Positions 1-17,285 of a DNA stretch of 22,159 nucleotides are shown one piece after another. The notes under the pieces are model-generated. The model ran no database searches and was not told where the DNA came from. It saw only the letters and a program-made list of their open reading frames with translations. Location of the stretch: the IMG/VR virus record IMGVR_UViG_3300021492_000071, positions 1 to 22,159 of that record; one strand, written 5' to 3'. The DNA is from a virus. Both the position numbers and the translations under genes were made by a program. The stretch's first letter is position 1. The number at the start of each line of letters is the position of its first letter.

Positions 1-1473
1 ATGCTGAAATTGAAGGTTGATTTGGAGAAAGCAACCGAGATGTTTTTAGAGGGAGATTTATCTTACAAATATTTTGTTGAGAACATCGTAAGGGAAATAG
101 AAGGAAGCGAGCTCACAGTTCCGAAGTTTCAGGAAGAGTGGGTGGACGCCGCTCTCACTCACCAGAACGTGGTCATAGCCGCTTCGAGAGGCTCGGGGAA
201 AACCATTACTTTCGGCGTGCTTCTGCCTCTTTACTTGGCAACGTATCACGCCAATAAAACATTTTTGATAATATCTCCGACAGAAGACAGGGCTTTTGAA
301 ATTCTGCAGAAAATCAGGTACACCATCGAAAACAACAATTTGTTGAAATTTTTGAAGCCAACAAGCACTGCGGGAACTTGGACCAAATCCAAAATAGACA
401 CTTCCAACCACTGCTTGTTTTATTCCAAATGCCTGTCTCCCAACTTGAGAGGCTATCACGTGGATTACCTTCTCGTTGAAGAGTGCGGTCAGATACAGGA
501 TGTGGATATGTTTTTGTCTGCTGTTCTTCCAACGATATATGCAAAAAAGGGAAAGTGCATAGCCATTGGAACTCCCGAAACGAGCTACGATTTGCTGGCA
601 AAACTGAAAAAAAACCCTCACTTTTACAGCATGGAGTTTCCAGCCATAAAAGACGGCAAACCTTTGTGGCCTGAAAGGTATCCGCTTTCGAAGCTGAAGA
701 CAATCAAAAGAACTATTGGAGAGTCGAGGTTCAACAGAGAATATCTGCTTCAGCTCACGTCGGACGAAGACAGAGCTTTTCCTTCCGACGTTCTTGTAGC
801 CAGTCTGGATTCCGACAGAGGATTTCTGAAGTACGGAGACGCGTCAAAGAGCTATTTTGTCGGCGTTGACTTGGCGGAGTCGCCGAAGGGAGACTACACT
901 GTGTTCACCGTTCTTGAAAAGCAAACGAATGGGAGTTTTGCTTTGGTGCATCTGGAGAGAATGAGAGGCGTTCAGCCGAATATTCAGGAAAGAATGCTGG
1001 AAGAACTGTACGAAAAATTCAAGCCGTTGAGGATAGAAGTGGATAGAAGTCTTTTTGGGCACACCTTTATCACGAATTTGAGAAGTGCAGGTCTTCCTGT
1101 GGTTGCTTTTGATTTCTCTCCGGGCAAGAGAGGATTGATTCTTCACACTTTGCAACGGGCTTTTGAAGACAGGAAGATCATACTGCCTTACAACGCGGAG
1201 GCAGAACCTTTGACAAAAATACTTCTGCACGAACTGTCGTACATAGACATCTCAAAAGGAAAGTTCAAAAGCAAAACGACTCACGATGATTGTGCCATAT
1301 CTTTAGCTCTGGCTTACTACGCCGCCTGCAAGTATAAATCCTGCTCGGTATATGGAGCGAGTTCGCAAGTTAATATATATAATAAAGTATCTAATTATGG
1401 GGCTGGGGAAAGTTATATTAGCCAGATGGAAAAACGCATGGAAAGGCTTAAAGAACAACTCGGTTTGGCTTAG
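1..1473 (+). CDS. terL: Terminase large subunit
   Basis: DNA-packaging motor of a tailed virus: the ATPase pumps DNA through the portal and the nuclease cuts concatemers. Seen: Walker A ASRGSGKT (residues 61-68), Walker B LLVEEC (157-162) preceded by the RG pair (150-151) typical of terminases, then an RNase H-fold nuclease with acidic residues D290 (GVDLAE), D348 (IEVD) and D429/D430 (THDD). The 490-residue length is normal for the family. The last ~40 residues after the nuclease are low in conserved features, and the DNA coding them also holds a TATA-like element and the start of the next gene. The first codon is the first base of the window, so an upstream extension and any small-terminase gene cannot be judged. 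Confidence 0.95.
   Translation: MLKLKVDLEKATEMFLEGDLSYKYFVENIVREIEGSELTVPKFQEEWVDAALTHQNVVIAASRGSGKTITFGVLLPLYLATYHANKTFLIISPTEDRAFEILQKIRYTIENNNLLKFLKPTSTAGTWTKSKIDTSNHCLFYSKCLSPNLRGYHVDYLLVEECGQIQDVDMFLSAVLPTIYAKKGKCIAIGTPETSYDLLAKLKKNPHFYSMEFPAIKDGKPLWPERYPLSKLKTIKRTIGESRFNREYLLQLTSDEDRAFPSDVLVASLDSDRGFLKYGDASKSYFVGVDLAESPKGDYTVFTVLEKQTNGSFALVHLERMRGVQPNIQERMLEELYEKFKPLRIEVDRSLFGHTFITNLRSAGLPVVAFDFSPGKRGLILHTLQRAFEDRKIILPYNAEAEPLTKILLHELSYIDISKGKFKSKTTHDDCAISLALAYYAACKYKSCSVYGASSQVNIYNKVSNYGAGESYISQMEKRMERLKEQLGLA
1371..1380 (+). promoter_or_regulatory. TATA-like element inside the terminase 3' end
   Basis: TAATATATAT is centred about 22 nt before the ATG at 1397, the spacing expected for a leaderless archaeal transcript. 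It lies within terminase coding sequence. Inference from composition and spacing only. Confidence 0.4.
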
Positions 1474-1684: not shown

Positions 1685-2820
1685 TACCGCTCAATAGATA
1701 CATATTAAGGGAAGAAAAGCCTGTGAAGGTGAAAACATCATCAGTCAAATCTACCGTGCCTGAATTTAAAAGGCTTGATTTGGCGGAAGCTGAAAGGATA
1801 TACATGACTGATGCTTTGGTAAGGAACGCGATAAACACTTCCGTGCACCTGTTCGACTGCGATTACGAGATTGAAGCTTCGACGAGCAGAATTAAAAACG
1901 AAGTGGAAGTGTTTTTGGACAGCATCGATTTTCCTCAATTGAGGAGAGACATCGCAAGAGACGCTTTTGTATACGGAGACGCTTGGTGCGAACTCGTTTA
2001 CAAAAACAACGAATTGATAGGCGTTGTCGGTCTGAACCCGAGAACCATCGACTACCAGAAAACAAACATGGGAGCAATAAAGCTTGACAGGTACGGCAAT
2101 CCTGTAGGATACCTTCAGGCTGTAAACGCGGAGCAGATTATGGATTCCCAAATCCAGAGAAGACTGGTAACGGTGGGAGGAGTTACGGGAATTCCTTTGA
2201 GAAACGACCAAGTTGCAAGATTTTACTTCGACAAAATAGGAGATGGGTGGTACGGTTTAGGTTTGATAGAACCCATATATTCCGTTACTTTGGGAAAAAA
2301 CGAGGCTGAAATGGGATTGTCTCACGTAATTCACAAAGTCGGCTTCCCTATTATAATTATGAGCGTCGGAGACGGAGAACACGAGCCGTCTCCCGATATG
2401 ATTAGCAACGGATTAAACCTGATTAAAGACTTGAATTACAAAACAGAATTATCAATACCTTATTACATGAAAGTAGATACGCTGAAAGTTACGAGGATAG
2501 AAAAATTGAAAGAATTTCTCGATTATTTTATCGAACAACAAATTACTGGAATGGGTTTGCCGGGAGCAATAGCAACAGGAAGAGGAGAAGATGTTAATAG
2601 ATCTACTTTGGTGTCTCAGATAAAGATATTTATGAAGATTAACGACGCGAGAAGGAATTTGTTTGCTTACCAATTCAACACTCAGGTATTGGCGAGATTG
2701 GCCAAGTCCCGCAACTGGCACACAACACCTAAAATTGTTCCCAAACCCACAGATATTGAAAGCCTGCTTGAAGGCGTCCAGAAGGACACCAGACGTGATA
2801 AAACTGGAGAGATAGGATGA
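1681..2820 (+). CDS. Portal protein
   Basis: Forms the dodecameric ring at the capsid vertex through which DNA enters and leaves, and docks the terminase and neck. Seen: 379 residues with the portal-type stem region DAFVYGDAWCELVY (from residue 94), followed by GLNPRTIDYQK and a polar pattern of alternating strands, then a long helical C-terminal half (LKEFLDYFIEQQITGMGLPGA) as in HK97/SPP1-type portals. It sits directly after the terminase, as usual. It overlaps the preceding gene by ATGA and also overlaps the next start by ATGA (2817-2820), so the three genes are probably translationally coupled. It is on the short side for portals because it has no fused MuF domain. Confidence 0.88.
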   Translation: MIPLNRYILREEKPVKVKTSSVKSTVPEFKRLDLAEAERIYMTDALVRNAINTSVHLFDCDYEIEASTSRIKNEVEVFLDSIDFPQLRRDIARDAFVYGDAWCELVYKNNELIGVVGLNPRTIDYQKTNMGAIKLDRYGNPVGYLQAVNAEQIMDSQIQRRLVTVGGVTGIPLRNDQVARFYFDKIGDGWYGLGLIEPIYSVTLGKNEAEMGLSHVIHKVGFPIIIMSVGDGEHEPSPDMISNGLNLIKDLNYKTELSIPYYMKVDTLKVTRIEKLKEFLDYFIEQQITGMGLPGAIATGRGEDVNRSTLVSQIKIFMKINDARRNLFAYQFNTQVLARLAKSRNWHTTPKIVPKPTDIESLLEGVQKDTRRDKTGEIG

Positions 2821-5800
2821 ATCTCATCTTTTTGGGAACTGGTCCTGCCCTTCCCGTAAGAGGCAGAGGAAAAAATTATAGGAGCAATTCCTCTCTTCTA
2901 ATTGAAACGAAGAATCACAATATACTGATAGACGCCACTCCGATGGTTGAAGAACAGCTGTTTAAGAATGCTGTAGACAAAGTGGATGCCGTGCTGATTT
3001 CTCACATGCACAGCGATGCTGTAAAAGGTCTGCCAAAACTGCTTGAAAAATTCGGCGAACTTCCAGTCTACACTTTAAAGCACAACTTTGAACTGATGCA
3101 TGATATATGGAAAGACATAAAACTGGAGGAGCACGACATAGAGCCCGGGAAGCCGTTTCAGGTGTTCGGAATCACTTTTATACCTTTTAGAGTTATTCAC
3201 GCAGAGCCGTTTCCAACGGGCAGGAAATATCCCTGCTTGGGATTTAGATTCAACGGAGTCGTGTACGCTGCGGACATGGAAGCAATCCCTCCGGAATCTG
3301 AGAAATACTTTGAAAACGCCGATTTGATGATAATCGATGCTGCCATGTACTTTGACAGAAAAATCAGAGGACACATGAACACCGAACAGGCTTTGCAGTT
3401 AGTTAAGAAATTCAAGCCTAAAAAGGCGATATTGACGCAGATAGGCAAGACATATCCAGACCATTACAAAGTTCAGAAAAGAATAGACGAGTACTGTAAA
3501 TTATACGGCATTTCTACTGATGTAAAACTGGCTTATGACGGAATGAAGATTGAGAATTTGGCATTGTCTCAACACGCAAAAGAAAATGTGAAAAAACTGA
3601 AAAAGGAAGCGGAAATCAAAAAAAGGACAGCTATATATTTAGTCAAACCGCACGCCGAATTGATTTACAACAACGAAAAGAAGTTGATTGTAAAATCAAG
3701 AAACTTCAAAAACATGCTGGACAAGCCTCTTTATCTATTAGATAACGAGTTCTGCTACGGCATTATTAAACTGACAAACGTCAAAAAAATAAACCTGAAA
3801 GAATTTGAGGAGCTTGGAGACAAGCATAAAATTACTGAAGCAGAGCGGGAAAAGTGGTGGGACGACAAAAATGAGCTGTACGCCTATGAATTTGAATGGG
3901 TGGAGCACTTTCCAGAACCAAAACCGGCTGTCGTCCCTAAAGGAGCACAAACGTTTGTGGAAGACTGGAGTTTTGCCAGCAAAGTGGAAAATTCAGAGGA
4001 TTTTAGATTTCACAGGACATTAGAGCTGATTCAGGACATTTACAATTACAACGCCCACAACATGGAAAATGAAGTGTTGGCTGACGATTTCAGACTTGCG
4101 GTAGCTTATTACTCCAGAATCCTGCAGGGCAAAAAAATAAAATTCTCTAAAGAGCAAATCGTGAAGCTGGCGACCAAGATACTAAAAGAAATAGCGAGAA
4201 GGAAAAAAGCTGGAAAGATGAACTGGACTGCCAATCCAGACGCAAAAACAGAAGCATACCGCCAGCTGTGGAAGGAAGTTGAATTGAGCAAAGAAGAAAG
4301 AGATATTTTATCGGCAACAACTTTATCTAAAAAAAAAGACTTACTGCATCAACTGCTTCCAACATTAGAAAACAAAACCATTATTAAAGACTTTATCAGT
4401 TTGGTTGGATCTACTGTTGAAAAAGGAGAAGGACATGACGTAGATATTTTGATAAGATTAGACGGTTTGGATTTCATAAAAAGAGCCATTTACACTTTGT
4501 TTAGAAAGAAATTAGATAAATTAGGAATTGACAAGGATGTTCATGTGTTCTTTGAACCTACTGGACCTGCAGATTCATTTATACCATTATACGATTTGAA
4601 ATTAGAGTTGAGAAATCCATTTAAGAAAGTAGAAATGAAAGAATTAGATTTATCCGAAATTCCAGTGCCTTATCTGCCTCAAAAGCCTTACGGTTCTGCA
4701 TACAATTCAGTTGAGGATTTGCTGGATAAGGCAAAAGAAGACACAGAATATTATGTTGAAAAGAAATTCAATGGCTTTCACGCTTCTATTGTCAAAAAAG
4801 GCGATGCAGTAAAGATATATTCAGAGCAGAAAAAAGACATTACTTCGGCATTCAAAACTCTTGTAGAAGACATTAAAAAACTAAGCGACAAGGACTTTTA
4901 CGTGGATGGAGAATTAGTGCCTTACGACAAAGACGGGAAAGCTTTGGGAAGGCGTCCATTAATGAAATTCATAGGAGCTGTTGAATCTGGGAAACAAGTG
5001 GATGATTCCAACATAAAACTGCACATTTGGGATATTATATATTATGACGGCAAAGACTTGAGAAGTCTGCCTCTGAAAGAAAGAAAAGAATATTTGAAAA
5101 AACTTAAACTAACTGATAGAATCACAGACACTCCTTACAAACTGGTTAAAGGAAAAGAAGAACTGAAAAAAGCTGTGGAATGGGCGGCAGCATTGCCCAG
5201 CAGCGAAGGAGCTGTAATAAAAGAAGCCGATGCTCCTTATACTTTTGACGAAAAGTCCCGTGCTTGGCTGAAATATCACAAATTATACGATATTGACTGC
5301 GTTGTTTTGCAGCAAAATAAGACTTCGAAAGAAGGAACATACAATTATAAAATAGGAGTATATGTGACGGATGAACAAGCCAAGAAAATAAATCCAGACA
5401 GATTAACAGAATTCAACGGCAAAAAGGTTTTAGATTTGAAAAATACATTCAACACTACTGAAACATTTAAACCGGGAGATATAATTAGCGTAGAAATAGA
5501 GGATATTTGGAGGCATGAAACTCCTAAAGGCATCTACTATTCCATACATAAGCCTAAAATAAGGCACATAACAGAGAAAAAAGAAACCACGCCCTTGTCT
5601 GAACTGGATAATTTAGTGTGCTCTATCGGCTCTAAAGTCGTAGAGGAGCAGGAAGTTGTCGTGGAGAGAAACAGCAAACTGCCTAAAGAAAGTGTTGACG
5701 ATACCGAAGATTCTGAAGGCGGAACGAGAAGCGAAGCTGCTAAGAAGTTTTTTGAGGAAAATTGGCATAATTTGTATCCCAAATCTGGCAAAGGAGAATG

Positions 5801-6425
5801 GGTATATCAACTTCATTTTAGAGGGTTGTCTGAACAGGAAGCAAAAACTTTAGATCTTAGAGGTTTATTAATGCAAGGCACACACTCTGTTCACGGAGAT
5901 TTGAGACTAAGCAATAACGGAACCTTGCATGGGTTTACGGTATTTGAAGGTTCTGCCAAAGATATACCCGTAAAAGAAAGCTCTAAATTGATTTACATGG
6001 CACAGCATAAAGGAGAAACAAAGTTTGAGAAATTGGAAGTAGCTCCCAAGTTATTGCAACCGCGAGGCTGGCTCCTAGTTGGACGAGACAAACCTTATTT
6101 ATCACCACCAAAAGGCATTGGAAGCACAACGAACAAATGGGCTAAATTCTTTGCGTTGGATTGGGGCACTTATGAACTGGGTGTTATTAGAGAGCACAGC
6201 CGCGAATATTTCTTGCGTGGCAATAATATGAAAGGCAGAGTGCTAATCACTTATGCTCCCGTTGCCGGTTCGAGAAAATGGCTTATAGATTTCCCGGTTG
6301 ACCAGACTCCTTACGCAAAATCTCACGATTTGAACGAAGTAATAGCGGAATTGAAGCAAAAGAAACAGAAGTGGCTGATATGGTGCAAACCCGGGGAAAA
6401 GCCCAAGAAAATCAAGATAGATTAG
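2817..6425 (+). CDS. Multidomain polyprotein: MBL fold, ASCH/PUA-like, nucleotidyltransferase, ATP-dependent DNA ligase, LigD phosphoesterase-like
   Basis: 1202 residues in one frame. (1) Residues 1-250, metallo-beta-lactamase fold with H63-x-H65-x-D67-A68, H128, D153 and H186; Ala replaces the usual last His of HxHxDH. (2) About 273-367, ASCH/PUA-like (IYLVKPHAELIY, NEKKLIVKSR). (3) Helical linker, then a pol-beta-type nucleotidyltransferase core: G531-S532 with D541-x-D543. (4) About 640-822, ligase adenylation domain: motif I E648-KKFNG (K650 the predicted AMP lysine, Asn in place of Asp), III DGELV (697), IIIa IWDIIYYDG, IV SEGAVIK (796), V WLKYHK (817). (5) OB-like to about 925. (6) About 980-1190, LigD 3'-phosphoesterase-like: QLHF (998) and HGDLRL (1026-1031). 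ATGA coupling to the portal puts it where MuF/head proteins usually lie. Inference: a DNA-end processing and sealing protein, possibly packaged with the genome. Domains 1, 4 and 6 are the surest. Confidence 0.85.
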   Translation: MNLIFLGTGPALPVRGRGKNYRSNSSLLIETKNHNILIDATPMVEEQLFKNAVDKVDAVLISHMHSDAVKGLPKLLEKFGELPVYTLKHNFELMHDIWKDIKLEEHDIEPGKPFQVFGITFIPFRVIHAEPFPTGRKYPCLGFRFNGVVYAADMEAIPPESEKYFENADLMIIDAAMYFDRKIRGHMNTEQALQLVKKFKPKKAILTQIGKTYPDHYKVQKRIDEYCKLYGISTDVKLAYDGMKIENLALSQHAKENVKKLKKEAEIKKRTAIYLVKPHAELIYNNEKKLIVKSRNFKNMLDKPLYLLDNEFCYGIIKLTNVKKINLKEFEELGDKHKITEAEREKWWDDKNELYAYEFEWVEHFPEPKPAVVPKGAQTFVEDWSFASKVENSEDFRFHRTLELIQDIYNYNAHNMENEVLADDFRLAVAYYSRILQGKKIKFSKEQIVKLATKILKEIARRKKAGKMNWTANPDAKTEAYRQLWKEVELSKEERDILSATTLSKKKDLLHQLLPTLENKTIIKDFISLVGSTVEKGEGHDVDILIRLDGLDFIKRAIYTLFRKKLDKLGIDKDVHVFFEPTGPADSFIPLYDLKLELRNPFKKVEMKELDLSEIPVPYLPQKPYGSAYNSVEDLLDKAKEDTEYYVEKKFNGFHASIVKKGDAVKIYSEQKKDITSAFKTLVEDIKKLSDKDFYVDGELVPYDKDGKALGRRPLMKFIGAVESGKQVDDSNIKLHIWDIIYYDGKDLRSLPLKERKEYLKKLKLTDRITDTPYKLVKGKEELKKAVEWAAALPSSEGAVIKEADAPYTFDEKSRAWLKYHKLYDIDCVVLQQNKTSKEGTYNYKIGVYVTDEQAKKINPDRLTEFNGKKVLDLKNTFNTTETFKPGDIISVEIEDIWRHETPKGIYYSIHKPKIRHITEKKETTPLSELDNLVCSIGSKVVEEQEVVVERNSKLPKESVDDTEDSEGGTRSEAAKKFFEENWHNLYPKSGKGEWVYQLHFRGLSEQEAKTLDLRGLLMQGTHSVHGDLRLSNNGTLHGFTVFEGSAKDIPVKESSKLIYMAQHKGETKFEKLEVAPKLLQPRGWLLVGRDKPYLSPPKGIGSTTNKWAKFFALDWGTYELGVIREHSREYFLRGNNMKGRVLITYAPVAGSRKWLIDFPVDQTPYAKSHDLNEVIAELKQKKQKWLIWCKPGEKPKKIKID

Positions 6426-6494: not shown

Positions 6495-7688
6495 ATGGGA
6501 CAGTCTAAAAAGGCTTTTGTGAGAAAAAATTGGCCTTTGATGTCTGCAGGAAAAGCCAATGGTATAAATTATTCTCCAGAGGTTATTAAGCAGGCTTTTG
6601 ATGCGACTGTTTGGGACAGAAAAACAACTTCCATATTTTTGGACCATCGCCCTTACGAGGCGAGCACTTGGATTGGAGAAGTCAAAAATCTTCACTTAGA
6701 TGGAGAAGATTTGAGGGGGGATGTTTATATTTATGATGTGAATACGATTAACAAGCTCGAAGCTGGTGCCAAATTTGGCATATCTCCAGAGCTTGAAGGG
6801 AGAGAGGAAAATGGAGAGATGAAGGAAATGAAATTCCTTAATTTTAGTGTAGTGTTTGAGCCCGCTGTCAAAACAACTTATCTGAACAAAGACAGCGGAG
6901 GCATTAGAACAAATTACATAAATCAAAAATTCTTTCTCAGTGCTGAATCTGAGAAAGAAATTCTTATAGAGCAGGTTGTTGACCCTGCTATGGCACGCTT
7001 CTGTTTTGTGGATTCCGACGGCAATCTTTGCCGTTGGTATCCGCAGGATGGGAGAATTTTGAATATGCAAGACGAAGAAAAAAAGGATGGGAACGACGTA
7101 AAAGAGGAAGCAAAGACTGAAGAAACAAAGGAAGAAAGCAAAGAAGAGCCTAAACAGGAATCTACTCAGGAACTTTCGGAAATAAAAGAAATGCTTAAGA
7201 GAGTTCTGGAAGAGAACAAAGAAATCAAAGAAGAATTAGCAAAGAAAAAGAAAGAGAAATATCCAGAGGAAAAGAAAGAGGATTATCCTGCACCCGAAGA
7301 ATTGAAAAAGAAAAAGAAGGAGAAATATCCTGAATACCCAAAGATGGAAGAAGAAAACAGGCAGAAGCTTGGCGAAGAGCTTTCGGAAGACATTATAGAG
7401 GCTTTGCGGGAAGTTAATTCTGAATACACCGACTTCGTCAAAGAATACATCAAAGAACACAAAGGCGAAGGAAGTATAGCAGAATTAATGAAAAAAGCCG
7501 CAAAGGAATGGAAATCCAGACAGAAAGAAAAAGAGCAGGAAGAAACAAAGAAATCCTTGCAGGAAAACAGGCAAACTGTTCCTCAGGCGGGAGAAACTCA
7601 AAAATTAACCGAAGTACAGTTTGAGGAACTGGACGCTGAATTGGCAAAATTCCTGCTTGAGCAGCAAGCTACTCTATCTGAAAGGTGA
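6495..7688 (+). CDS. Prohead maturation protease fused to a scaffolding tail
   Basis: Predicted serine protease that cleaves scaffold and capsid proteins during prohead maturation. Residues 1-150 carry the prohead-protease pattern: FLDHRP with H51, W-IGEV-NL-LDGEDLRGDVYI, FGISPE with the likely nucleophile S97, and the strand FLNFSVVFEPAVKTTYLN. From about residue 195 the protein becomes a very long Lys/Glu-rich helix, consistent with an internal scaffold (delta-like) domain. The helix contains repeated KKKEKYPE-type segments near residues 250 and 275. Only 397 residues carry both functions, and no separate scaffold gene is seen. The gene lies immediately upstream of the capsid gene, as is standard. 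Start chosen because it is 26 nt from a TATA element. Exact protease clan is inferred. Confidence 0.8.
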   Translation: MGQSKKAFVRKNWPLMSAGKANGINYSPEVIKQAFDATVWDRKTTSIFLDHRPYEASTWIGEVKNLHLDGEDLRGDVYIYDVNTINKLEAGAKFGISPELEGREENGEMKEMKFLNFSVVFEPAVKTTYLNKDSGGIRTNYINQKFFLSAESEKEILIEQVVDPAMARFCFVDSDGNLCRWYPQDGRILNMQDEEKKDGNDVKEEAKTEETKEESKEEPKQESTQELSEIKEMLKRVLEENKEIKEELAKKKKEKYPEEKKEDYPAPEELKKKKKEKYPEYPKMEEENRQKLGEELSEDIIEALREVNSEYTDFVKEYIKEHKGEGSIAELMKKAAKEWKSRQKEKEQEETKKSLQENRQTVPQAGETQKLTEVQFEELDAELAKFLLEQQATLSER

Positions 7689-7689
7689 T
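7683..7689 (+). promoter_or_regulatory. Shine-Dalgarno site deciding the capsid gene start
   Basis: AGGTGAT, the archaeal anti-16S sequence, lies 4 nt before the ATG at 7694 and contains the TGA stop of the upstream gene. It argues against the GTG at 7685 as start and suggests stop-start coupling. Confidence 0.65.
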
Positions 7690-7693
7690 AAAA

Positions 7694-8785
7694 ATGGATG
7701 AACAAACCTTGAGATTGGTTCAGTCTTCTTTTACAAAGAAGACACTAAGCGACTTCTTTTTGAAAAGAAGTCAGGTGGACGCGGAAGGAAATGTACAGAG
7801 GAAAATATACAGATTAGCAGACACAACTACTTCTACATCAGGAATGGCTACAAGCACGCCTGCTACCACAGGTATTCAGGGAATAATGTGGTTCAAAGAG
7901 ATAATCAAATACGCAGAAGACTTGAGAAGATTTGACCAAGCAGTTATGCACAACGAATACATGGTCAATACAGGTGCTCACGAAGTGATGGTGCCAAGAG
8001 CTACAAGTCATTTGTCTTTGAACTATTCAACCAGCGAAGGTTCTGACAGAACACTTACAGCATTGGACAATCTCAGCACGACAGCCGTAACATTGTCGGC
8101 TTCTGACTTCAAAAAGGGCGGAATAGGCATCTCAAAGGAACTTGCCATGACATCTATGGTTGACATGTTGGCACACGCTCGACATGTAATAACCCAAGAT
8201 TTGGCAAGGGATTTAGATGTAGCAATCGCCACAGAACTCCAAGATACTTCTGTAACTAACAGAGTGTTTGGAGGTTCTGGAGTTTCCGACCCTAGCGGTT
8301 TGTCTGCTGGAGACGTGCTGACAACTGACTTAATAGCAGATGCTATGGAAAAGTTGGAATCTAACAACTATGTTCCAAAACTGCTGTTTGTCTCACCAGC
8401 ACAGATCAAAGCATTTAGAAAAGACAGTCAATTTGTGAATGCCAGCGAATATGGAAGCAACGAAGTGGTTTTAAAAGGTGAAATAGGACAATACTTGGGC
8501 ATCAGGATAATAAAAACCACCAATACACCGGCATACAGTTCAGGAGCAACAGACACAAACCAGAACACAAAAACATGGGGTGCAGCTGGACATTGTTGTA
8601 TAATGGTAGGAACGAACAATTGGGACCAGTTGGTTTCAGGAGTTGTCGCATGGAAAGAGAAGCCTAACGTGGACTATGAATTCAACAAACTCAAAAGCAA
8701 GCACATATTCTACGCAAATCAGGCTTACAAAGTGAAGCTATTAGAACCAAAAGCAGTCTGTTTAATTAAAGTAACAGACGCTTAA
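7694..8785 (+). CDS. Major capsid protein (HK97 fold)
   Basis: Builds the icosahedral shell. The 363-residue product has a charged N-terminal helix region (about 1-65), then the HK97-fold pattern: an E-loop-like segment, the spine helix DLARDLDVAIATEL, and the P/A-domain signature DAMEKLESNNYVPKLLFVSP followed by FRKDSQF-ASEYG and GEIGQYLGIRIIKT. The end, HIFYANQAYKVKLLEPKAVCLIK, is the usual A-domain strand series. The gene follows the protease/scaffold, and a strong T-tract terminator comes right after it, as expected for the most abundant product. The N-terminal part may be a cleaved delta-like region, but I see no clear cleavage site. Confidence 0.88.
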   Translation: MDEQTLRLVQSSFTKKTLSDFFLKRSQVDAEGNVQRKIYRLADTTTSTSGMATSTPATTGIQGIMWFKEIIKYAEDLRRFDQAVMHNEYMVNTGAHEVMVPRATSHLSLNYSTSEGSDRTLTALDNLSTTAVTLSASDFKKGGIGISKELAMTSMVDMLAHARHVITQDLARDLDVAIATELQDTSVTNRVFGGSGVSDPSGLSAGDVLTTDLIADAMEKLESNNYVPKLLFVSPAQIKAFRKDSQFVNASEYGSNEVVLKGEIGQYLGIRIIKTTNTPAYSSGATDTNQNTKTWGAAGHCCIMVGTNNWDQLVSGVVAWKEKPNVDYEFNKLKSKHIFYANQAYKVKLLEPKAVCLIKVTDA

Positions 8786-8833
8786 TCTTTTTGTTTTTTT
8801 GTATTTTTTTTAGTTTTTTTTACAGAATTTTTT
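8786..8833 (+). terminator. T-tract terminator after the capsid gene
   Basis: Four or more runs of 6-8 T in under 50 bp, without an inverted repeat, directly after the capsid stop codon. This is the normal form of archaeal intrinsic termination. Confidence 0.7.
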
Positions 8834-10685: not shown

Positions 10686-13571
10686 ATGAAGGTGGATACA
10701 AAAACATACCGGACAGCATTAAAAGTAGCATTTATAGCAGTTTTAACTCTTTGTATGCTGCATGCCGTATTTACGAACAGCGTAAAAGATTTATGTTCTT
10801 CTGGAACGTGGCAGCACATATTGGGGTATTACTATTTCTGCCCTGCTGAAAATTCGTATAGGTACTGCGAAAAGCTCAGCTCTACGAATAGAACGTGCTA
10901 TCTGATGGACGAATCAGACTTGCCCAAAGCTGTGCTTTCCGACAGGAAAATATTGAAGCTTGTTAAATCAGACGGAGTGTCCAGTCTGCTGAATTTTAAT
11001 ATTACTTATATTGGCCCGCACACCGCCAAAATACACTGGAAATGGAAGAATCAGACCATACGAAAAAAAGTCTTTTCCAGCGGTTTTTCGCTGGAGCAGG
11101 CAAAGTCTTTTGCTGTAAAAACAATTGCCACGTGCAAACAGTATAAAAATGTTTCTTTATGCAAAGGCGGAAAGTGGAAAGCTTATAATTCTACGCATTA
11201 TATATGTACCTCCAACGGAGAATTGGAAAAGTGTATCAACATCTCTCAGGACAATATCTGTTATCATCCAAAGATTATACAATATTGTACAAACATTTCA
11301 AACACAACTAAATATGTGTTGAAAATATCTCCAAAAATTGCGTATACAAACCTGCTGAAAGTCAAGTCTAAAGGTCTGCCTGTAAAATACTTTGTAACCA
11401 AGAAAGCGGAATTTGTCAATCAGTCGAGTACTACATCTCCAGAATTCACCAAATTTTTGAAGTCGATTCCAGCAAAACAGGCAAAGCTTTCTTCCGGAAA
11501 AAATCTCACAAAAAGCCTAAATTTGGATGTCAGCAAATCAGAAGGCTACTTTATATTGAACTTGCGAAAAGCAGCTCCTGGACAGAGAGTTATTATTGGT
11601 TTCAATTCCACTGTGTTTACAGTCGAAGAGCCTGACAACTGCGAATATATAAACGATATAACTCCATCATTCAATGTTTCTCCTTCCGGGGATTATGATT
11701 ACTACAACCTGACATTGTACATCAACGGAACAGAAAAGGGAAGTGCGATGAATGTTCCAAACAACACATATGCTGTTATTACCAGCTCCGTGCTTACAAC
11801 TGAAGGCCTGTATGAATGGTATGTTGAAGCAAAAGTCGGAGGCACATCGGTTTCTAATACATCTACAATGTATTTCACTCTGGATACAACTCCGCCTGTA
11901 GTGACTATAAATTATCCTAGAAACAATGGAAGAGTAAGAGTTTACAATCCTTGTCTCAATTTTACATACATCGAAGACCATCCCAACAATGTTTATTTCC
12001 AGATAGACGGTTTGCCTACAAATTACACTACACATCCTTATTTGACTGATGATCACATGGTGCTGTACTTGAAAATGGATGAAGGTGCGAGCAACATGGC
12101 TTATGACAGTTCTAAATACGGAAACAACGGAACAATTCATGGAGCAACTTGGACAACTGGGAAATTCGGCTCTGCTCTGGAGTTTGACGGAGTGGATGAT
12201 TATGTAGAAGTGCCTGATAGCGATAGTTTAAATATTACTGATGCGATTACGATTGAGGCGTGGGTGAAAATACTTAATTTGGACACTGCTAATAGGATAG
12301 TAGCAAAAAGAATAGGAGTGAAGAGTGCTTATGATTTTGTGTTTAGAGGGGATAGTTTAAAACGATTAAACATTCTTTTCCGTGATGGTGATAACATGGA
12401 TAATCTTTTTTCAGCCCCTAATGTTATAATTGATACTTTATGGCATCATGTAGTAGTAGTCAGAAATGACTACAACGTTGAGTTTTTTGTGGATGGCGAA
12501 CCGGTTGGTACAGCTATAGCTCGATATGATATGATTACCTTAGAATATCCAGTTCTAATAGGATGTTTGGAAAAAGCAGCTTCTTGGTTTTATGGCACAA
12601 TAGACGAAGTCCGCATCTACAACCGAGCCTTGTCGGCAGAGGAAATCAAAGAGCATTATTACAAAGGCCTGAAAACGCATTATGTTAGGTTAAATGACCG
12701 AGGATACCCAGATATAAACAACACAACAAAACTTCTTCTTACATTTGACCAAAGCAATAAGACATCTGGGAGTGCGGATGGCGAGACTGTATATGACATT
12801 TCGGGCAACGGAAATGACGGAACAATTCACGGAGCAAATTGGACAACTGGGAAATTCGGCTCTGCTCTGGAGTTTGACGGAGTTGATGATTATGTATATT
12901 GCGGGAATGATGAAAGTCTACGCCCATCAGATGCAATTACACTCGAAGCCTGGATTAAACCTTTGTCTTCAGGTTATGAAATCATAAATTATCGTATTAA
13001 TGGAGCTGGTCCTTACTATGTCTACCATATTCGTAAAAGTGGTGCTGCAATCACTTTATATGATGGAAGTGATGATGGTTTAGGATATACAATTCCTTAT
13101 ACTTTATCAAAAAATTCGTATCATCATTCGGTTCTTGTTTTTTCAAGAGCAGAGCGTAAATTTAAATATTATGTAGATGGGATTTTGAGAGGTTCAAAAA
13201 CAACAGGGGATTATCCTTTATATACTCATTGCACACCAAATCATCCTGATTGTAATATACACGGGTTCTTTATAGGTTGTGCACGTAATGGTATTCGACA
13301 TTTTCCTGGCACAATAGACGAAGTCCGCATCTACAACCGAGCCTTGTCGGCAGAGGAAATTAAAGAGCATTACAGACTGGGAAACGGAGTTCACAATGTA
13401 ACTGCTTATGTAGTGGATTTAGCAGGAAACAAAGGTACAGCAACCAGCAAGTTTTCCATAAGATACATCTCAACTTCATTGGATTATGTGTTTTATTCAG
13501 TAATCGGCTCTTTTGGTGCGGCATACCTTGTTTACAGGCTAAGGAGAAGGAGAAGAAGACGCAGACATTAG
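10686..13571 (+). CDS. Large membrane-anchored surface protein with two LamG domains
   Basis: 961 residues. Seen in order: N-terminal signal/anchor helix (about 11-29, KVAFIAVLTLCMLHAVF); a Cys-rich region to about 205 with many NxS/T sites; an Ig-like stretch with the TTPPVVTINYP signature (about 405); LamG/concanavalin-like domain 1 (about 457-658) and domain 2 (about 683-896), each opening with the D-S-NG-NDGTIHGA-W pattern and closing with GTIDEVRIYNRALSAEEIKEHY; another short Ig-like strand set; a C-terminal membrane helix (about 934-951) and a tail of about ten arginines. LamG domains bind glycans or surface proteins. With anchors at both ends it is expected at the host surface or as an extended receptor-binding spike. 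Its place in the head-neck cluster is unusual. Receptor binding or superinfection control is inference. Confidence 0.75.
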   Translation: MKVDTKTYRTALKVAFIAVLTLCMLHAVFTNSVKDLCSSGTWQHILGYYYFCPAENSYRYCEKLSSTNRTCYLMDESDLPKAVLSDRKILKLVKSDGVSSLLNFNITYIGPHTAKIHWKWKNQTIRKKVFSSGFSLEQAKSFAVKTIATCKQYKNVSLCKGGKWKAYNSTHYICTSNGELEKCINISQDNICYHPKIIQYCTNISNTTKYVLKISPKIAYTNLLKVKSKGLPVKYFVTKKAEFVNQSSTTSPEFTKFLKSIPAKQAKLSSGKNLTKSLNLDVSKSEGYFILNLRKAAPGQRVIIGFNSTVFTVEEPDNCEYINDITPSFNVSPSGDYDYYNLTLYINGTEKGSAMNVPNNTYAVITSSVLTTEGLYEWYVEAKVGGTSVSNTSTMYFTLDTTPPVVTINYPRNNGRVRVYNPCLNFTYIEDHPNNVYFQIDGLPTNYTTHPYLTDDHMVLYLKMDEGASNMAYDSSKYGNNGTIHGATWTTGKFGSALEFDGVDDYVEVPDSDSLNITDAITIEAWVKILNLDTANRIVAKRIGVKSAYDFVFRGDSLKRLNILFRDGDNMDNLFSAPNVIIDTLWHHVVVVRNDYNVEFFVDGEPVGTAIARYDMITLEYPVLIGCLEKAASWFYGTIDEVRIYNRALSAEEIKEHYYKGLKTHYVRLNDRGYPDINNTTKLLLTFDQSNKTSGSADGETVYDISGNGNDGTIHGANWTTGKFGSALEFDGVDDYVYCGNDESLRPSDAITLEAWIKPLSSGYEIINYRINGAGPYYVYHIRKSGAAITLYDGSDDGLGYTIPYTLSKNSYHHSVLVFSRAERKFKYYVDGILRGSKTTGDYPLYTHCTPNHPDCNIHGFFIGCARNGIRHFPGTIDEVRIYNRALSAEEIKEHYRLGNGVHNVTAYVVDLAGNKGTATSKFSIRYISTSLDYVFYSVIGSFGAAYLVYRLRRRRRRRRH
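12121..12206 (+). repeat. LamG border repeat A, copy 1
   Basis: 86 bp that match 12811-12896 at 81 positions, including about 45 identical bases from 12149. It encodes the opening of LamG domain 1 (NGTIHGATWTTGKFGSALEF). The following 386 bp have no comparable DNA match to the second domain. Confidence 0.85.
12593..12658 (+). repeat. LamG border repeat B, copy 1
   Basis: 66 bp matching 13307-13372 with one mismatch (a synonymous Ile codon). It encodes the closing strand and helix of LamG domain 1 (GTIDEVRIYNRALSAEEIKE). Confidence 0.88.
12811..12896 (+). repeat. LamG border repeat A, copy 2
   Basis: Second copy of the 12121-12206 sequence (81 of 86 identical), opening LamG domain 2. Followed by a 410-bp core unlike that of domain 1. 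Confidence 0.85.
13307..13372 (+). repeat. LamG border repeat B, copy 2
   Basis: Second copy of 12593-12658 (65 of 66 identical), closing LamG domain 2. Confidence 0.88.
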
Positions 13572-13599: not shown

Positions 13600-14265
13600 A
13601 TGTGTGCTTTTTGTACAGTTTTAGATGTGAGAAGTATAATCAGTCTCACAGAAGATGATATATCTGACGAGCAAATAGCTTCCTTAATTTCCTATGCTCA
13701 ATTGCAGTTGGCTCAAGAAGTGTATGTTTATCACGAAGATGAAGAAGTGTCATATATTGATGAAGAAAAGGACAATGATATAGATGGTTCTAACAAGGTA
13801 TATTACACTCGTTTCTGGCCTATTGCCGACAGAAATCAGGACGGCGTTGTAGATTCGAACGATGTCAAGGTTTACAAGTTCGATTCTGAAGGAAACAGGA
13901 CTGAAGCGACTATAAGCTCCATAGACGCTGCAAGAGGAAAAATAACTTTGTCAGAAGCACCCACGTCAGACTATACACTTAAGATTACGTATTCTTCTTA
14001 TCCGCCAAATATTACGAGCAGTGATTTGAAAATGGCGTGCATATACCTGACAGCTGCTCTCTGCTACGCGAAATGCGACCCGACAATCTTGAAACATTTA
14101 GACACTTTAGACGTTTTGAGAATGCCGGACCCGTACAACAGGTTTATGAAGATGTACAAAGATACATTAACTAGGATAAAATCGGGAATGGCTATGAAAG
14201 GAGAAGACTCCGAAACTGTTGCCTTTGAGGATATTCGAAGCGAACTTCCTCGCAGAAGCATTTGA
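13600..14265 (+). CDS. Head-tail connector (adaptor) protein with an EF-hand-like loop
   Basis: 221 residues. The N-terminus (LDVRSIISLTEDDISDEQIASLISYAQLQL) and the C-terminal helices (SSDLKMACIYLTAALCYAK, MKMYKDTLTRIKSG) form the pattern of gp6/gp15-like adaptor proteins that sit under the portal. Between them is a beta-rich insertion (about 50-125) holding D77-R-N-Q-D-G-V-V-D-S-N-D88, a textbook EF-hand/dockerin calcium loop with Asp or Asn at positions 1, 3, 5, 9 and 12. Inference: the loop binds calcium and stabilises the neck. Start is the ATG 23 nt from the TATA box. The next gene starts 2 nt after the stop, so they are coupled. Confidence 0.72.
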   Translation: MCAFCTVLDVRSIISLTEDDISDEQIASLISYAQLQLAQEVYVYHEDEEVSYIDEEKDNDIDGSNKVYYTRFWPIADRNQDGVVDSNDVKVYKFDSEGNRTEATISSIDAARGKITLSEAPTSDYTLKITYSSYPPNITSSDLKMACIYLTAALCYAKCDPTILKHLDTLDVLRMPDPYNRFMKMYKDTLTRIKSGMAMKGEDSETVAFEDIRSELPRRSI

Positions 14266-16409: not shown

Positions 16410-17285
16410 ATGCAACCGAAAGTAAATGTTGAGATGGCAACGATAATAGCGAATGTGTACTACGGACATCAGTCGGCTAGAATAGCCAACTTTAACAGAA
16501 TTAGAGACCTTATCCGAAAGAGGCACGAAGACATTCCGTTGAACATTCCAGAAGAGAAAAAAGAGGACAAAGCCTACATTAACAGGTACATAGACAGAAA
16601 CCTTGAACCTTTGCTGAAAGAAATAGTCAAGAAATACGGCAATTTGGGCGACGAAGAGCGATACTTCATTGAAGAGTTTACAAAGATTGCCAGCGAAACC
16701 AAAACACTTGAAAGGCGATGCCTCAAACTAATGGACAACTTTTTATCTCACGAGCCAATATGGAACTGGCTGAAGCGGATAAAAGGGATTTCGAAAGTCT
16801 TGGCGATAAACCTGATCAGAAACTTTGGCTACTGCGAAGGTGCCAACAGCCCTTCCAGTATATGGAAATACGCAGGTCTTGATGTGGTGGATGGAAAAGC
16901 GAGAGTGAGAAAACACGGGCAGAAACTGGAATACAGACCAAGAGCCAAAGTTGTTGCTTGGCTTGTGGGAGACAGTTTCCTGAAACAGAGAACGCCTTAT
17001 TACAGAGAAATTTACGACAAAGAAAAGCAGAGACTTGAGGCTCTGGAGTTTAAGCCGGGAGAACTGCACGAAAAATATCCTAACAATTACAAAGTGACGG
17101 ACACCAAATTGACGCCTCTGCACATACACAGGAGAGCTATGAGAAAAATGGTGAAAAGGTTTCTAATTCACTATTTGACTGTTGCGAGGAAAATGAAAGG
17201 ATTGCCAATTAGAGCTCCTTATGTGGAGGAAAAACTTGGACATACTCATATAGACAATCCGCCGCTTACAGACGGATTGTTCTAA
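16410..17285 (+). CDS. HhH/Transposase_20 domain protein lacking the RuvC-like half of IS110 transposases
   Basis: 291 residues. Residues about 118-200 match the C-terminal domain of IS110/IS116/IS902 transposases: the helix-hairpin-helix LKRIKGISKVLAINLIRNFG (121-140), IWKYAGLDV (151-159), RVRKHGQ and RAKVVAWLVGDSF, then YYREIYDKEKQRL. The N-terminal DEDD (RuvC-like) catalytic domain is missing; instead there are about 110 helical residues (IIANVYYGHQSARIANFNRIRDLI). The serine-glycine pair usual after the YAGL segment is replaced by D161-G162, so the catalytic serine seems absent. Basic C-terminus HIHRRAMRKMVKRFLIHYL. Most likely a DNA-binding protein derived from, or sharing ancestry with, IS110 transposases, used by the virus. 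It has its own promoter, a terminator, and lies next to a repeat array. Confidence 0.7.
   Translation: MQPKVNVEMATIIANVYYGHQSARIANFNRIRDLIRKRHEDIPLNIPEEKKEDKAYINRYIDRNLEPLLKEIVKKYGNLGDEERYFIEEFTKIASETKTLERRCLKLMDNFLSHEPIWNWLKRIKGISKVLAINLIRNFGYCEGANSPSSIWKYAGLDVVDGKARVRKHGQKLEYRPRAKVVAWLVGDSFLKQRTPYYREIYDKEKQRLEALEFKPGELHEKYPNNYKVTDTKLTPLHIHRRAMRKMVKRFLIHYLTVARKMKGLPIRAPYVEEKLGHTHIDNPPLTDGLF

Follow-up and report, generated by a model that had tools for sequence, protein, structure and literature searches.

A predicted LigD-like DNA end-healing and sealing polyprotein encoded among the head genes of viruses that appear to infect archaea

The 22,159-base IMG/VR virus fragment analyzed here (the window, meaning that whole stretch of DNA) encodes, directly after its portal gene, a polyprotein in which an MBL-fold domain, an ASCH domain, a predicted nucleotidyltransferase (NTase), an ATP-dependent DNA ligase and a LigD-type 3'-phosphoesterase (PE) follow one another in a single chain. 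On balance, we favor the view that this is a head-associated, LigD-like healing and sealing polyvalent protein of an archaeal tailed virus, acting on viral DNA; this suggests that the virus particle may carry a DNA repair kit for its own genome. The domains, their conservation and the gene context are described below, together with the catalysis, substrate, packaging and timing that we infer from them.

Domains of the window polyprotein

The gene order in the window is terminase, portal, polyprotein, prohead-protease-like gene and N4-gp56-like major capsid gene, with the following features:

1..1473, + strand: terminase large subunit (PF17289 2e-14, phrog_38 2.6e-49), perhaps truncated by the contig start
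1681..2820, + strand: portal protein, Mu/phrog_9232 type (PF06074, Portal_Mu, 2.3e-11; phrog_9232 9e-21)
2817..6425, + strand: entire 1202-aa polyprotein, with an ATGA overlap with the portal gene
2817..3566, + strand: MBL-fold hydrolase domain, residues 1-250 (PF12706, Lactamase_B_2, 1.3e-28; alignment)
3618..3941, + strand: ASCH domain, about residues 268-375 (relative above the Pfam cut-off; AlphaFold and Foldseek)
3942..4328, + strand: helical region, about residues 376-504 (alignment and AlphaFold model)
4329..4706, + strand: predicted Pol-beta-superfamily NTase, about residues 505-630 (motifs and profiles)
4704..5291, + strand: adenylation domain of an ATP-dependent DNA ligase (PF01068, DNA_ligase_A_M, 5e-29; PDB DNA ligase 3gde 6.6e-17)
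5292..5651, + strand: OB-fold-like part of the ligase, about residues 826-945 (assignment from its location after motif V)
5769..6422, + strand: LigD-type 3'-phosphoesterase, residues 985-1202 (AlphaFold/Foldseek, hhalign)
6495..7688, + strand: prohead-protease-like protein, C-terminal part long and charged (family profile Prot 2e-81)
7685..8785, + strand: major capsid protein, N4-gp56-like (phrog_1357 1.7e-17, TIGR04387 2.7e-16)

The polyprotein ORF (2817-6425) runs uninterrupted from ATG to stop, and its start overlaps the stop of the portal ORF (1681-2820) as ATGA. This overlap had been noted in the original prediction, made from the letters alone, and the domain list given there for the 1202-aa protein was also correct, diverged phosphoesterase included, as judged from Pfam, profiles and AlphaFold/Foldseek. 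PADLOC, run on the window polyprotein, returned no match. The family profile Prot connects the product of 6495..7688 to S78-type proteases in contigs L072 and L154, and the DUF2213 match of this protein is weak. Further along the window lie a gene for a 961-aa protein with Ig-like and LamG/concanavalin-like domains (10686-13571), likely to be a virion surface protein, and, amid the tail genes, a transposase-like gene (16410-17285; phrog_4285 2.8e-46, IS110-type Pfam match 0.0024).

The ligase has motifs I (K650-F-N-G), III (E699), IV (E797-G) and V (W817-L-K); motif I had been read as KxDG, and is actually KFNG in the window and in L002, L003 and L007, with KxDG in most other members of the family. 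The family LIG profile spans residues 642-946, in agreement with the ends of the OB-fold-like region, and the NHEJ ligase model (NHEJ_ligase_lig, TIGR02779) matches the window polyprotein at 8.4e-23, below that model's cut-off. In an unrooted tree, the viral ligases are set apart from archaeal host ligases with a support of 100.

Motifs and profiles support the prediction that residues 505-630 form a Pol-beta-type NTase. The motif residues in the window are G531, S532, D541, D543 and D593, and the GS-x8-DVD pattern, together with a third acidic residue, is conserved among relatives (alignment, motif scan); the hG[GS]-x-DxD signature of the Pol-beta superfamily is present, the third carboxylate being missing in some family members. 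The Pfam NTP_transf_2 match is weak (0.015), and a search of the PDB with the NTase profile returned solely Pol-beta-superfamily proteins, all of them weak (E 0.04-1.2). Alignment to archaeal minimal NTases with hhalign gave 79.8%, and 60 shuffles gave at most 1.2%. AlphaFold modeled the region poorly (pLDDT ~30-50), and a polymerase activity for this domain is a guess, because the NTase is minimal and the model failed.

A LigD-type phosphoesterase had been proposed at residues 980-1200, and this is borne out by structure prediction and profile alignment. The window PE model (pLDDT 85) was compared with the PDB by Foldseek, and all seven matches at E<=0.001 were LigD PE structures, including 3p43, 3n9b, 3p4h, 5dmp and 2lj6. 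The PE was not detected directly by a Pfam scan of the window polyprotein, and a PDB profile search using just four PE sequences gave no match; PF13298 scores were obtained for the homologous regions of L010, L011, L063, L064 and L165, with at least one relative above the cut-off. The family PE aligned with archaeal cellular LigD PE at 96.5% in hhalign (60 column shuffles, at most 2.7%), whereas the window clade alone reached 47.6%, so the link between the window PE and LigD goes through relatives and structure. The H-H-D-R signature is invariant across a nine-sequence alignment and corresponds in the window to H1000, H1026, D1028 and R1030, with a His-His spacing of 25 residues rather than about 6. 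A catalytic His of LigD PE, H84 of the Pseudomonas enzyme, is not retained at the residues aligned with it, although archaeal cellular PEs are variable there too.

The MBL domain retains H63, H65, D67, H128, D153 and H186, but residue 68 is an alanine rather than a histidine, and the metal motif described previously as HxHxDH is actually HxHxDA. The complete dinuclear site HxHxDH...H...D...H is absent from the window clade, which has HxHxDA/C, whereas HxHxDH is intact in the MBL of L063, L064, L134, L138, L145, L147, L148, L150 and L154. The label "MBL nuclease" proved to be unsupported, there being no beta-CASP match and one metal-ligand histidine missing from the window clade; given KxNG and HxHxDA, the activity of the ligase, the MBL or both could be altered in this clade. 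The ASCH assignment is confirmed: its Pfam score is weak in the window (0.025), but the close relative L007 is above the Pfam cut-off, the AlphaFold model of residues 250-640 has a pLDDT mostly >90 over the ASCH domain, and Foldseek matches to this model at E<0.001 were all of the ASCH type (TTHA0113, ZmASCH and YqfB were matched). The helical region that follows is common to the window, L002, L003, L007 and L009.

Comparison with L002, a 92%-identical relative, gave a dN/dS of 0.03-0.09 for the NTase, ligase and PE, which are thus under purifying selection; no ratio is given for the MBL and ASCH domains, because synonymous sites are saturated.

Relatives and shuffling of modules

Relatives were found by sequence searches and a profile map, on 45 contigs, some of which are near-duplicates or share one MAG; a single-protein scan found two, and family alignments were needed for the remainder. 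The contigs were recruited on ligase or PE similarity, never by gene neighborhood. Most are from uncultivated viruses, and ANMV-1 and contigs binned with Methanosarcinales/Methanophagales are also included. The window polyprotein is no isolated case, and the modules are shuffled among its relatives.

Both the NTase and the ligase are present in 40 of the 45 contigs (as separate nearby genes in L165 and L166), and several of the others are cut by contig ends. A PE is present in 39 contigs; L009 has none, so that the NTase-ligase-PE core is not strictly constant. The MBL (14 contigs), ASCH (22) and D12-type DNA adenine methyltransferase (11) modules are optional and shuffled: the order is MBL-ASCH-NTase-ligase-PE in the window, MBL-ASCH-methyltransferase-NTase-ligase-PE in L007, NTase-methyltransferase-ligase-PE in L011, and ASCH-methyltransferase-MBL-NTase-ligase followed by a separate PE gene in L063 and L150. 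The idea of a one-chain kit therefore holds for the window, but in other members the core is often divided between two or three genes, and MBL and ASCH can each be absent. In L002, the closest relative, these sequences recur at 81-92% identity but form two proteins, and a methyltransferase separates MBL from ASCH. L003 and L009 also have the ASCH-NTase-ligase fusion, which shows that its presence in the window is not due to misassembly.

The family profiles were built partly from the same loci, and the E-values that they give there are not independent; many of the domain calls are backed by Pfam, which is independent of these profiles. The active-site motifs (NTase DxD, ligase KxDG/KxNG and EG..K, PE H-H-D-R) are retained family-wide. 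Of the 50,697 deposited phage records, ANMV-1 alone shows the NTase-ligase-PE architecture. Its AJP62006.1 ("ATP-dependent DNA ligase") is a true member, with NTase, ligase and PE directly after the portal, but without MBL or ASCH and annotated as a ligase only; the family seems to have been overlooked because this sole member in the deposited phage records was annotated just as a DNA ligase. The preceding ANMV-1 protein, AJP62005.1 (L004:1913-3193), is annotated as a "MutT-like phage hydrolase" and is actually the portal (PF06381 3.2e-22). No description of the polyprotein family was found in the open-licence literature, against which, with Pfam, NCBIfam, PHROGs and PADLOC, novelty was judged; subscription papers may hold one.

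Some genes of the family are interrupted. Intein/Hint and LAGLIDADG domains break up the ligase and PE domains in L063:2135-7081, L063:7036-10077 and L153:7224-12350, and inserted genes split the polyprotein at differing points in L020 (647-2344 and 5849-6919) and L002 (2860-5521), the downstream half beginning with a coiled coil in both. A common inserted cassette was considered for L002 and L020 but found no support, as neither the inserts nor the coiled-coil N-termini show detectable similarity. Several other candidates were set aside: MT837453.1 (L005, "Bacteriophage sp."), an MBL match that is apparently bacterial chromosome (MurB-, peptide deformylase- and TPR-like genes); ligases of Sinorhizobium/Rhizobium phages, in which the ligase domain alone matches and no head genes are annotated among the neighbors a few kb to either side; and most Halobacteriota matches, which are ordinary host DNA ligases. 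The best plasmid matches to L007 had nothing beyond Dam-type methyltransferases in common with it, and plasmids had nothing in common with the NTase-ligase part of L064.

Linkage to head genes and possible functions

A portal gene was detected in 21 of the 45 contigs, always upstream, and the gap was between -155 and +192 bp in 20 of these, the exception being L153, in which the portal call is weak. A prohead protease lies downstream in 28 contigs, and three others have just a capsid gene there (31 in total). A scan of 84,980 species genomes, a set that is not made up of viruses alone, found four loci, each with a portal gene directly upstream. The linkage to structural genes on which the original prediction staked itself is thus present and very strong, and extends to fusions: L151 encodes NTase, ligase, PE and an XkdF protease in a single chain (Pfam XkdF 2.3e-29, ligase 5.4e-26), ligase-PE-protease fusions are found in L165 and L068, a PE-protease fusion in L015 and an ASCH-portal fusion in L021. 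These prohead protease and portal fusions are the best argument that the polyprotein may be associated with the head.

The polyprotein would probably be produced alongside the portal and prohead protease and built into or attached to the head, where the protease perhaps cleaves it into domains. At packaging or shortly after entry, the PE would trim blocked 3' ends, the Pol-beta-type NTase would add or fill in nucleotides and the ligase would then seal, the likeliest substrates being nicks, gaps or ends in the virus's own DNA. The optional modules (MBL, ASCH and adenine methyltransferase) may serve in the processing or protection of DNA, or against host defense.

Known systems offer comparisons. 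Polyvalent proteins of phages and conjugative elements are large, shuffled, multidomain proteins encoded beside portal or terminase genes (Iyer et al. 2017, PMC5512222); some are fused to MuF or portal, and entry with the DNA has been proposed, but they are scarce in archaea and almost all those of >1000 aa are bacterial (PMC5512222). The viral family resembles them in having several catalytic domains per chain, shuffled among relatives and encoded with portal/terminase genes; the terms "DNA ligase", "LigD", "ASCH" and "lactamase" have no match in the main text of that paper (PMC5512222). LigD, of bacterial and archaeal NHEJ, processes ends with its PE, adds nucleotides with its polymerase and then ligates (PMC7719229). 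The likeness lies in the combination, within one chain or across neighboring genes, of an ATP ligase, a PE of the same type and a domain that adds nucleotides, whereas the viral family has a Pol-beta-type NTase, the order NTase-ligase-PE, additional MBL, ASCH and methyltransferase modules, and a location among head genes. LigD's own polymerase is of the primase type, and this domain was absent from Pfam and NCBIfam scans of the window polyprotein. LigD pairs with Ku, for which (PF02735) no match was found in eight family records, several of them fragments; the scheme proposed above would need neither Ku nor the LigD polymerase. The mycobacteriophage Corndog borrows the LigD of its host and encodes Ku, whereas the archaeal-virus family encodes ligase, PE and NTase, none with Ku in the eight records searched. 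End joining involving the Corndog Ku is thought to circularize the phage genome (Pitcher et al. 2006, as cited in PMC4351075).

A more far-reaching reading, put forward tentatively, is that the heads of archaeal tailed viruses hold a self-contained, Ku-less end-joining machine that enters with the DNA to repair, circularize or protect the genome. Such a machine would combine PE, Pol-beta-type NTase, ATP ligase and optional nuclease-like or methylating modules as a virus-specific counterpart of NHEJ, and its composition would be nearer to the eukaryotic set (MBL enzyme, PolX-type polymerase, ligase) than to LigD.

It is less likely, although worth weighing, that the same enzymes mend nicks and gaps of replicated viral DNA solely within the infected cell, late in infection, preventing stalling of the packaging motor, with the protein outside the virion and its gene placed with the head genes owing to timing. 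The close portal spacing in 20 contigs would also be expected from co-expression with packaging genes, and no adjacent portal was detected in L064, L135 and L136; however, the prohead protease fusions and the ASCH-portal fusion bind modules physically to head proteins, and the methyltransferase and MBL modules suit entry more than packaging. Repair or modification of RNA (tRNA) to counter host nucleases, by an RNase Z-like MBL, 3' addition by the NTase, PE healing and RNA ligation, with ASCH as an RNA-binding domain or ac4C hydrolase, seems improbable. The window MBL is similar to RNase Z/PhnP-type enzymes, ZmASCH and YqfB are among the ASCH structures matched, and a sister virus, G001, encodes an RNA ligase as a distinct gene next to TerL, but the polyprotein ligase is much nearer to DNA ligases (PF01068 5e-29; in L007, 2.7e-28 vs 3e-5 for RNA_ligase), the PE is of the LigD type and a D12-type DNA adenine methyltransferase is added in 11 contigs; DNA is preferred over RNA as the substrate because of these ligase, PE and methyltransferase types. 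It is highly improbable that the domains have for the most part no activity and contribute to the portal vertex or prohead core as structural or DNA-binding components, since, despite the missing MBL metal ligand and the KxNG motif of the window clade, dN/dS is low, active-site residues are conserved in distant members and nine members have an intact HxHxDH.

If the head-associated repair protein that we favor does travel in the particle, it would supply archaeal hosts, among which NHEJ is reportedly rare (PMC7719229), with a full set of activities for healing and sealing DNA ends. This would show a route for the repair or circularization of a viral genome upon arrival, add archaeal viruses to the known range of polyvalent proteins, here with a function in repair instead of attack, and provide biochemistry with a natural series of reshuffled end-joining modules.

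Hosts and the sister virus

The viruses with this polyprotein family appear to infect archaea, to judge from clues in some of the contigs. ANMV-1, recorded from an uncultured archaeon, has a TATA-box-binding protein (TBP) gene; the matches in species genomes lie on contigs binned into MAGs of Methanosarcinales and Methanophagales, binning being no more than suggestive of host; and G001, the sister virus and closest relative of the window, has genes for RNase HII and for a TFIIB-repeat protein, the latter a marginal match. The RNA ligase (PF09414 4.8e-16) and TFIIB-repeat protein (5.5e-5) of G001 are encoded beside TerL (L160:12682-13626 and 13608-14195, both on the - strand), the RNA ligase being a gene separate from the polyprotein. 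Elsewhere in G001, a JAB-type peptidase adjoins a ThiF/E1-like protein (L161:7500-8240 and 8246-8821, + strand), a ubiquitin-like conjugation pair in what is probably an archaeal virus.
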